Below, in pieces: positions 8,738 through 36,950 of a stretch of 36,950 nt of DNA. Positions within the stretch are counted from its first letter, which is position 1. Each line of letters opens with the position of its first letter. The notes beneath the pieces were generated by a model, which saw only the letters and a program-made list of their open reading frames with translations, made no database searches and was not told the origin of the DNA. The stretch spans positions 1-36,950 of the forward strand of contig DVEB01000222.1 of assembly GCA_015295905.1 (NCBI GenBank), written 5' to 3'. This DNA comes from Synechococcales cyanobacterium M55_K2018_004 (GTDB lineage: Bacteria > Cyanobacteriota > Cyanobacteriia > Elainellales > Elainellaceae). Made by a program: the position numbers and the translations under genes.

Positions 8738-8859
8738 ACGTCAGTTCGGATTAAGAGGGTTTGGGGGCACCGCGCCGGGCGCGGTGCCCCCAAACCCTCC
8801 ATGTTCCGTGCGCGCCGCGCACGGAACATGGAGGGTTTCAGCCTATCCCGAATTCACGT
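8738..8859 (+). repeat. MITE-like two-hairpin repeat, copy 2 (full length, 122 bp)
   Basis: A complete copy. Its termini are ACGTCAGTTCGG and CCGAATTCACGT, which are imperfect inverted repeats. Hairpin A is centred on the GGGCGCGG region (arms GGGGGCACCGCGCC / GGCGCGGTGCCCCC); hairpin B has arms CCTCCATGTTCCGTGCGCG / CGCGCACGGAACATGGAGG. CACAAAT occurs at 8730-8736, one base before the left end, and again at 8860-8866 directly after the right end, consistent with a target-site duplication. It lies between divergent rfbC and gifB. Confidence 0.9.
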
Positions 8860-8935
8860 CACAAATACAAAGCTTTGACGCTCCTAGGTCCAAACTCTAT
8901 AGGAGGCAATTTCCGAAAAAATTTAACTTTACCCC

Positions 8936-8964
8936 TTGACAAGAAACTGTCAAACGGTAACAAT
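8936..8964 (+). promoter_or_regulatory. Predicted gifB promoter (-35 and -10)
   Basis: A perfect -35 hexamer TTGACA at 8936-8941 is followed at 16-17 bp by TAACAAT at 8958-8964, a plausible -10. Transcription would begin near 8971, just ahead of the riboswitch. The -35 also overlaps a small inverted repeat GACA-N6-TGTC (8938-8951). Confidence 0.65.
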
Positions 8965-8970
8965 GAATAC
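8957..8970 (+). promoter_or_regulatory. NtcA-binding site (GTA-N8-TAC) over the gifB -10 region
   Basis: GTAACAATGAATAC fits the canonical NtcA box GTA-N8-TAC exactly. It overlaps the predicted -10 element and start point. At gif genes NtcA is a repressor under nitrogen limitation, and a site in this position would block RNA polymerase, so location and known biology agree. Confidence 0.8.
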
Positions 8971-8980
8971 AGAAAGTTAA

Positions 8981-9052
8981 ATCGTTCATCCTTTCAAAGT
9001 TAACTTTCCTCATTGAAAGGACGGAAGTAGGGAGTTATCCCGAAGGAACGCG
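8981..9052 (+). promoter_or_regulatory. Glutamine riboswitch (glnA RNA motif)
   Basis: The 5' leader of gifB carries the conserved glnA-motif blocks ATCGTTCATC (8981-8990), GACGGAAGTAGG (9020-9031) and CCGAAGGAACGC (9040-9051). They fold as a three-way junction: P1 CGTTC (8983-8987) with GAACG (9046-9050); P2 CCTTTCAA (8990-8997) with TTGAAAGG (9013-9020); P3 GGG (9030-9032) with CCC (9039-9041). This class binds L-glutamine, and in cyanobacteria it is known upstream of gifB, where glutamine favours expression. The call rests on motif and pairing read by eye, not a covariance-model search. Confidence 0.9.
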
Positions 9053-9080
9053 CCTCAACCATCACTTCAAAAGCGAGGCG
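9051..9080 (+). promoter_or_regulatory. Putative expression-platform hairpin masking the gifB ribosome-binding site
   Basis: CGCCTC (9051-9056), immediately 3' of the riboswitch P1 stem, is complementary to GAGGCG (9075-9080), which contains the likely Shine-Dalgarno GAGG for the ATG at 9087. The first base of CGCCTC is the last base of the conserved CCGAAGGAACGC block. Formation of the ligand-bound P1 could compete with this hairpin and expose the site. The pairing is seen; the switching mechanism is inferred. Confidence 0.55.
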
Positions 9081-9086
9081 AATTCT

Positions 9087-9539
9087 ATGAAACTCAACTA
9101 TCGCGGAGTCCAATACGACTACAATCCTCAACCCATCGATTTGACGAACCTGCAAGCGCAATCCAGTGATCTGACCTATCGCGGTGTGGCTTATACCTCT
9201 AACCCTCAAGGGGTTGGCGTTTTGCATAGCAACCCTACAACTGCTGAGTTGACCTATCGCTTCAACACCTACAAAACGAACCAACCGGTTGCTGCGCCTG
9301 TGGGTGAAACGGCTGATGTCGCAGCGATCGCGCCTACTTCCGCTAAGGAACGTGCCCGTGTTCTGATGATGAACCATCACCGTGCCGTGAAGCGGCGTCA
9401 ACAAACCATGTTGACCCGTCTAGCTGCGACGATTGGCATGGATGTTGAAACAGCCAGCCACTACTGGAACCATGTGCAAGGCAAGGTTCACCCCAGCTTC
9501 TGGGCAACCTATGACCGTAGCCACGTTGCTGCAAGCTGA
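9087..9539 (+). CDS. gifB: Glutamine synthetase inactivating factor IF17 (GifB), DUF4278 N-terminus
   Basis: A small inhibitor that binds and shuts off type I glutamine synthetase when nitrogen is plentiful. The C-terminal 65 residues match IF7/IF17 closely: RARVLMMNHHRAVKRRQQ (residues 89-106), TMLTRLAATIG, then HYWNHVQGK, SFWATYDRS. The N-terminus (1-66) holds three DUF4278-type repeats (LNYRGVQYDYNP, LTYRGVAYTSNP, LTYRFNTYKTN). At 150 residues it has the length of IF17 rather than the 65-residue IF7. The ATG at 9087 is preceded by GAGGCG. Regulation is layered: an NtcA box over the -10 and a glutamine riboswitch in the leader. No gifA copy is in this window. Confidence 0.92.
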   Translation: MKLNYRGVQYDYNPQPIDLTNLQAQSSDLTYRGVAYTSNPQGVGVLHSNPTTAELTYRFNTYKTNQPVAAPVGETADVAAIAPTSAKERARVLMMNHHRAVKRRQQTMLTRLAATIGMDVETASHYWNHVQGKVHPSFWATYDRSHVAAS

Positions 9540-10960: not shown

Positions 10961-11381
10961 CTAGGACTTGATGTGAAGCCCAAACTAATTTTGGGGCACC
11001 GCGCCGGGCGCGGTGCCCCAAAACCCTTGCTTTTCCCGAATTCACGTAAACTAGGTCCAACAGTTGAGTCTTAATTCTAGCCAAAGCATTTTGGCTTTGC
11101 GGCAACTTTGTGCGTAAACTAATGATTTTAGGGTCTGAAAGTCCTTATTTTGCGGAGTGACGCTGTAGATCACTCCGCATGCTCTCGTGGCCGTAGCACT
11201 CGCGCACCCGATTGAGGACAAAGGTTTAGGATAAAGGGGATGCGAGAGATTTACCCCCAGCCCAGGCTAGATCCCTGGCGACCTGTCCTCACCGAGGCTG
11301 GCCACCGCTGTAGAACCAGAGAGACGCTGGCTTGAGAAGACTGACCTAACTATTCCTGTGCCTCGGTTGCCCCCTTGCCCT
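10961..11381. other. Intergenic region between cbiB and the hybrid kinase
   Basis: A gap of about 420 bp holding short repeat copy 3 (10971-11047), a 10-bp-stem hairpin TGCGGAGTGA/TCACTCCGCA (11151-11179) without a U-run, and a long-range pair GAGGACA (11214-11220) / TGTCCTC (11284-11290). The hairpins could belong to the kinase leader or a structured RNA; no known class is recognised. Confidence 0.5.
10971..11047 (+). repeat. MITE-like repeat, copy 3 (short form, one hairpin)
   Basis: About 77 bp. Hairpin A is intact (TTTTGGGGCACCGCGCC / GGCGCGGTGCCCCAAAA), but hairpin B is missing: CCCTTGC runs straight into TTTTCCCGAATTCACGT. The left end is diverged (ATGTGAAGCC). No clear flanking duplication. 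It begins 10 bp after the cbiB stop codon. Confidence 0.85.
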
Positions 11382-20008: not shown

Positions 20009-20196
20009 GAGTTCAATTCCTTGTGGACATTGTGTGGATAGCAATTAGCTACCCGTGAAAATCATACGTTTAATTCACGCTGGCTGTGGTTTGAACAGAT
20101 GCACGTCACGACTCAATCTGCCCACCCTGCGGGCAGCAATCTACACCCTCGCATCTAGCTCCCCGGCTCCCAAGCTCGGGAGCCGGAGTTAATTTC
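20009..20196. other. Upstream region of rubrerythrin with two GC hairpins
   Basis: About 190 bp without a gene. It holds CTGCCC/GGGCAG (20118-20136) and a strong stem CCGGCTCCC/GGGAGCCGG (20163-20186) directly before repeat copy 5. Neither is followed by a U-run on either strand. Confidence 0.5.
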
Positions 20197-20318
20197 ACGT
20201 GAATTTGGGATAAGCTGAAACCCTTGCTGTTCCGTGCGCGACGCGCACGGAACAGCAAGGGTTTCGGGGCACCGCGCCGAGCGCGCTGCCCCACAACCCG
20301 CTTAACCAGAACTGACGT
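20197..20318 (-). repeat. MITE-like repeat, copy 5 (full length, 122 bp)
   Basis: A full copy in inverted orientation, running from ACGTGAATTTGGG to CCAGAACTGACGT. Hairpin B is perfect (CCCTTGCTGTTCCGTGCGCG with its complement); hairpin A is partly decayed. It is flanked by a perfect 7-bp direct repeat TAATTTC at 20190-20196 and 20319-20325, the clearest target-site duplication in the window. Confidence 0.93.
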
Positions 20319-21315: not shown

Positions 21316-21476
21316 GGCCTTTCCCAACGCATCACGCTATCCCACCGAAATGTTGTGTTTCGTTACAACTTCTCTCTATTGTGACGAATTTAGGATGAAT
21401 AGCTCGGAAAAGACTCAACCACTGAGCAATTCTCATGGTAGATCTCTGGTTTTCATCCTGAGAACCACCATCAATA

Positions 21477-21560
21477 ACGTGAATTCTGGATAAGCTGAAA
21501 CCCTTGATGTTCCGTGGGCGACGCGCACGGAACATCAAGGATTTTGGGGCACCGCGCCGC
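21477..21560 (-). repeat. MITE-like repeat, copy 6 (truncated)
   Basis: Inverted orientation. The end ACGTGAATTCTGGATAAG and hairpin B (CCTTGATGTTCCGTG with CACGGAACATCAAGG) are present. Hairpin A breaks off after GGGGCACCGCGCCG, and the other terminus is missing. Sequence of the second repeat family follows within about 20 bp, suggesting a nested insertion or deletion. Confidence 0.8.
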
Positions 21561-21579
21561 CGAGTTTCCTACAAAACGT

Positions 21580-35350: not shown

Positions 35351-35354
35351 GGAA

Positions 35355-35433
35355 AGTCAGTGCTGGTTGAAAAGGTTTTGGGGCACCGCGCCGGGCGCGG
35401 TGCCCCAAAACCCTTGCTGTTTCGAATTCACGT
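35355..35433 (+). repeat. MITE-like repeat, copy 7 (short form, 79 bp)
   Basis: Left end AGTCAGTGCTGG (one base lost from ACGTCAG), intact hairpin A, no hairpin B, right end TTCGAATTCACGT. It is flanked by a perfect 7-bp duplication TGAGGAA at 35348-35354 and 35434-35440. The left duplicate starts with the TGA stop of the helicase gene; the convergent RRM gene ends five bases after the right one. Confidence 0.93.
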
Positions 35434-36551: not shown

Positions 36552-36683
36552 ACGTCAGTTCTGGCCAGTTCTGGCTAAGAAGGTTCTGGGGCACAGCGCT
36601 AAGCGCTGTGCCCCAGAACCTTTGCTGTTCTCTGCGCGACGCGCAGAGAACAGCAAAGGTTTCAGCTTATCGCGAATTCACGT
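36552..36683 (+). repeat. MITE-like repeat, copy 8 (132 bp)
   Basis: A full copy with a 10-bp internal duplication CAGTTCTGGC (36556-36575) that explains the extra length. Hairpin A has arms TGGGGCACAGCGCT / AGCGCTGTGCCCCA, and hairpin B CCTTTGCTGTTCTCTGCGCG with its exact complement. TAAATA flanks it at 36546-36551 and 36684-36689. Confidence 0.92.
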
Positions 36684-36692
36684 TAAATAAAA

Positions 36693-36893: not shown

Positions 36894-36950
36894 ACGTGAA
36901 TTCGGGATAGGCTGAAACCCTCAATGTTCCGTGCGCGGCGCGCACGGAAC
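36894..36950 (-). repeat. MITE-like repeat, copy 9 (cut by window edge)
   Basis: Inverted orientation, starting ACGTGAATTCGGGATAGG and running into hairpin B (CCCTCAATGTTCCGTGCG). The rest lies outside the window. Confidence 0.88.

Follow-up and report, generated by a model that had tools for sequence, protein, structure and literature searches.

Probable control of gifB by an NtcA box and a glutamine-I riboswitch in the cyanobacterium M55_K2018_004, with a conserved stem over the Shine-Dalgarno sequence

The closest described system is gifB of Synechocystis sp. PCC 6803, which encodes the inactivating factor IF17 and carries an NtcA box centred at -7.5 together with a type 1 glutamine riboswitch in its leader (Klahn et al., 2018, as reviewed in PMC6316151). 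In that organism NtcA represses transcription, glutamine activates translation of IF17, and glutamine synthetase is inactivated. Three conserved arginines of IF7 and IF17, along with lysine K102 of the Synechocystis IF17, matter for glutamine synthetase binding (PMC6316151). The aptamer is known from a structure comprising P1, P2 and P3 (Ren et al., 2015, via PMC11477058), in which G23 enters the P1 helix upon glutamine binding and pairs there with C60; this linchpin pair forms only when the ligand is bound (PMC11477058). The pair at the ligand has been named as C1:G59 (PMC6698751). Glutamine-II (DP) riboswitches (RF01704) respond to the same ligand and are likewise ON switches, likely translational (PMC6698751), but the pseudoknot architecture belongs to that class.

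We analysed a stretch of 36,950 nucleotides from Synechococcales cyanobacterium M55_K2018_004 (the window; contig DVEB01000222.1), in which gifB is very probably under the known double control by NtcA and a glutamine riboswitch, this control being taken as a whole. Direct reading of positions 8936–9539 located TTGACA, AACAAT, the NtcA box, the glutamine aptamer and the IF17 reading frame where the first-pass annotation had placed them. The features of the locus, all on the plus strand, are as follows.

8936–8941, plus: -35 element TTGACA, conserved ahead of the NtcA box in the majority of IF17 leaders
8957–8970, plus: NtcA box GTAACAATGAATAC, an exact GTA-N8-TAC over the -10 hexamer AACAAT (8959–8964), predicted site centred at 8963.5
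8981–9054, plus: glutamine-I (glnA) riboswitch aptamer, full-length match to RF01739 (57.3 bits, E 3e-10)
8983–8987/9046–9050, plus: aptamer P1
8989–8996/9014–9021, plus: aptamer P2
9022–9029, plus: aptamer conserved block CGGAAGUA
9030–9041, plus: aptamer P3
9042–9051, plus: aptamer conserved block GAAGGAACGC
9051–9056, plus: 5' arm CGCCUC of the anti-Shine-Dalgarno stem, directly after P1, its first base C9051 being the counterpart of the linchpin base C60
9075–9080, plus: Shine-Dalgarno GAGG(CG), 6 nt ahead of the ATG and forming the 3' arm of the stem
9083–9086, plus: UUCU, which pairs with GGAA (9045–9048) on the 3' side of P1 in the ligand-free minimum-energy fold
9087–9539, plus: gifB, glutamine synthetase inactivating factor IF17 (150 aa), with a DUF4278 N-terminal part and an IF7-like C-terminal part

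The reading frame at 9087–9539 is identified by homology as gifB. The first half of the protein matches DUF4278 (PF14105, E 2.3e-13) and the C-terminal 66 residues are recognised by NF052599, the model for glutamine synthetase inactivating factors (E 5.3e-27, 93.9 bits against a cut-off of 70), an arrangement and length that agree with the published description of the Synechocystis protein (DUF4278 plus an IF7-like part, 149–150 aa). In an alignment of 26 inactivating factors (the IF17 of the window, 24 other IF17-type proteins from relatives and the source genome, the second IF17 of that genome included, and its 66-residue IF7), R91, R104 and R111 are invariant and K102 is present in 24. These matches and the invariant arginines bear out the earlier assignment of an IF17 coding region. 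A search by sequence found no protein relative with a solved structure. The source genome also carries a gene for type I GlnA (677 bits).

The promoter follows the Synechocystis gifB plan, with an NtcA box over the core promoter as in an NtcA-repressed promoter, and the spacer between TTGACA and AACAAT is 17 nt. On its own the box is weak evidence, because the whole window contains five exact GTA-N8-TAC matches where 2.1 are expected. Its placement, by comparison, is non-random: among 82 related aptamers, 65 are preceded by an exact box no more than 60 nt from P1, where shuffled sequence gives 1.1 on average. The distance to P1 is mostly 9–18 nt among these relatives and 12 nt in the window. 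The sequence GTAACAATNNATACAGAAA recurs in most IF17 leaders, with TTGACA about 17 nt before AACAAT, and this recurrence suggests that promoter and aptamer are under selection as one unit. If the box centre lies at -7.5 as in Synechocystis gifB, transcription would start at about 8971, upstream of the aptamer. NtcA itself is encoded in the same genome (388 bits). The segment TTGACAAGAAACTGTCAA (8936–8953) is an inverted repeat that also yields a promoter-like site on the minus strand (8953–8926), probably by chance.

The leader RNA is classed by covariance-model search as a glutamine-I riboswitch. The match covers positions 1–53 of the 53 in RF01739, scores well above the gathering score of 35, ends 32 nt before the gifB start codon, and is the only one to this family among the 362 contigs of the source genome; the window matches RF01739 and not RF01704. 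The Rfam search that had been proposed as a way of refuting the glnA-motif call, with its conserved blocks, was thus positive. As in Synechocystis, the aptamer lies in the 5' leader of a DUF4278/gif gene.

The same arrangement is widespread among relatives. At least one glutamine-I aptamer is present in 50 of 60 related genomes, from which about 80 aptamers were oriented for comparison of their leaders. By position, 28 of 35 IF17-type genes have an aptamer. The remaining seven at first appeared to lack one, but reading their leaders showed that four possess an aptamer whose P2 or P3 has a long insert and which had escaped the fast genome search, raising the count to 32. The three exceptions are the second IF17 of the source genome, one relative (L147) and a gene with an internal stop (L149). 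Short IF7-type genes carry an aptamer in only one case of 37 (L079, an 80-residue IF7-type gene that lacks DUF4278 and lies directly behind a glutamine-I aptamer). Given the frequency at IF17-type genes and the published Synechocystis case, the gifB of the window is a normal member of a known arrangement, which agrees with the first-pass view that the riboswitch class is already known; the stack of NtcA box, riboswitch and IF17 gene is common in cyanobacteria.

Downstream of the aptamer, CGCCUC (9051–9056) pairs with GAGGCG (9075–9080) to form a 6-bp stem over the Shine-Dalgarno sequence. A stem covering this site in the same register, its first base immediately following the P1 strand GAACG, is found in 66 of 81 related leaders and is absent from the other 15; in most relatives it ends close to the ATG. 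The register is sharply defined, since the mean pairing score of 14.8 falls to 1.7 one base upstream, and swapping arms between leaders gave lower pairing than the native combinations in all 2000 permutations. Covariation is limited: the compared sequences are related and most pairs of the stem do not vary. Pair 4 is C-G in 55 leaders and U-A in 11; one double change each is seen at pairs 3 and 5. When only leaders with the minor 5' arm are considered, their own 3' part is not significantly better paired (474 of 2000 random choices equalled it). From this comparison of leaders, the Shine-Dalgarno-hiding stem is conserved in a register that starts from C60.

This register places the stem in direct competition with the ligand-dependent pair of the aptamer. 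Since C1:G59 is the pair at the ligand, C60 is the next base after G59 and corresponds in the window to C9051, which is also the first base of the anti-Shine-Dalgarno stem. Pairing of C60 with G23 and pairing with its partner in the stem are mutually exclusive, so that ligand binding would cost the stem at least one G-C pair. The locus here differs from the solved aptamer in having a natural expression platform in which C60 plays this second role. We tentatively suggest, from the sequence arrangement, that in cyanobacterial glutamine-I riboswitches the C60 linchpin pair itself might transmit ligand binding to the ribosome-binding site; part of this idea may already have been published. In ViennaRNA calculations for the window, the cost of opening the Shine-Dalgarno sequence falls from 8.9 kcal/mol in the free leader to 8.7 with P1 formed and to 6.6 when C60 is withdrawn as well; across 77 leaders the drop has a median of only 0.3 kcal/mol. 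Forcing P1, with or without C60 unpaired, leaves the Shine-Dalgarno sequence paired, and we therefore dropped these calculations as a thermodynamic proof of its release. They do not refute the role proposed for C60, because they contain no tertiary contacts.

A different route from ligand to ribosome is offered by full strand exchange, in which GGAA from the 3' strand of P1 and UUCU extend the anti-Shine-Dalgarno stem until glutamine reforms P1 and releases it. This fold is the minimum-energy state of the ligand-free leader (-33.5 kcal/mol), and forcing P1 in the window costs 3.1 kcal/mol. The 6-bp stem nevertheless persists when P1 is forced, and extensions of the GGAA/UUCU type occur in 13 of 61 relatives against 11.0 ± 2.3 in shuffled tails. 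With relatives at chance level, we rejected strand exchange as a family-wide switch and consider it unlikely as the explanation here. The suggestion in the first-pass annotation of a readable switch mechanism is thus upheld for the conserved sequestering stem; its opening by glutamine is only inferred, folding shows no release, and the extra pairing specific to the window is not conserved above chance.

A translational switch at the linchpin base was also weighed against readings that place control elsewhere or deny it altogether. The riboswitch could act on transcription termination or mRNA decay, and the sequence is compatible with decay, but the stem is not followed by a U-tract and no terminator-like site was found in the leader between the aptamer and the start codon, while the stem ends on the Shine-Dalgarno sequence, near the ATG as it does in most relatives; control at these levels is accordingly very improbable. 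That aptamer or promoter has decayed to a remnant, leaving gifB without regulation by glutamine here, might be entertained because the second IF17 paralogue of the genome has no recognisable aptamer. However, the aptamer of the window is one of the highest-scoring of the roughly 100 in 60 genomes (top score 59.9) and all its conserved blocks are intact, which leaves the remnant reading with scarcely any credibility.

Under the double-control model, high 2-oxoglutarate (poor nitrogen) would place NtcA on the -10 element and repress transcription, and plentiful nitrogen would release NtcA so that the leader is transcribed. The aptamer would then make translation dependent on glutamine: without ligand, the CGCCUC/GAGGCG stem would mask the Shine-Dalgarno sequence, and with ligand, a stabilised P1 would draw C9051 into the aptamer, weakening the stem and allowing IF17 to be made and to inactivate glutamine synthetase. 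Our analysis observed the sequence elements, the family memberships and the conservation of the NtcA box and of the stem register; by analogy, NtcA repression, activation by glutamine and inactivation of the synthetase of the Synechocystis type are inferred to hold in M55_K2018_004 too. The proposal that gifB reads 2-oxoglutarate through NtcA and glutamine through RNA gains support from the matching families and from the same geometry in Synechocystis (PMC6316151). In the main, the result bears out, for one more cyanobacterium, a control system that is already in the literature. The comparison of leaders contributes evidence on the expression platform, which the cited papers cover least, in the form of a stem that hides the Shine-Dalgarno sequence and begins at the ligand-dependent linchpin base in most leaders, and this register provides a simple mutational test of how the glutamine signal reaches the ribosome.

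The source genome, unlike the described Synechocystis case, has a second IF17 paralogue that lacks a recognisable aptamer (L150, G000:C312:16350-17500; 157 aa). It has an NtcA box, GTAGCTTATAATAC, and its leader of about 180 nt gave no Rfam match; together with gifB it offers a natural comparison with and without the riboswitch. A further DUF4278 gene (L094, G000:C104:389-509) is preceded by an NtcA box, GTAACATATACTAC, and by a long leader that has no aptamer and can pair CUCAGGCAU with AUGCCUGAG beside the Shine-Dalgarno sequence. Both leaders were considered as new aptamers and dropped, having no Rfam match and no similar leader by DNA similarity in the 60 relatives.

Many glutamine-I riboswitches are followed by genes for an unannotated microprotein family (L171–L190, also L013, L042, L047 and L076) of about 36–53 residues with one likely membrane span and a consensus of approximately MxTALxxGLEIIxxVTVMxxVxxPxLCWVLPDR; neither Pfam nor NCBIfam gave a match for it. 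Of the 291 genomes of the class, 55 contain relatives with E values up to 0.1, the weakest of them doubtful. RF01739 lies nearby above its gathering score at 14 of the best 20 loci and at none of the next ten. At the loci that were read the aptamer is just upstream, and several have an NtcA box and the same Shine-Dalgarno-hiding stem. This family may deserve more interest than the gifB finding itself. At two other loci (L005 and L007) a soluble peptide of 49–51 residues (KTYRVSxDTVAFMLSSGFSTDGSWYQWVKKNRQQxIDR) replaces DUF4278 after a glutamine aptamer; the L005 peptide has no Pfam or NCBIfam match. The window also contains a dispersed family of GC-rich double-palindrome repeats, at 1–58, 8740–8865, 10969–11037, 20189–20314, 21475–21579, 35353–35424, 36561–36691 and 36894–36950. 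A 66-base piece of this repeat has 79 matches in the genome, both arms counted, and copies are found ahead of both gifB and gifA (C59) and, in several cases, at contig ends.
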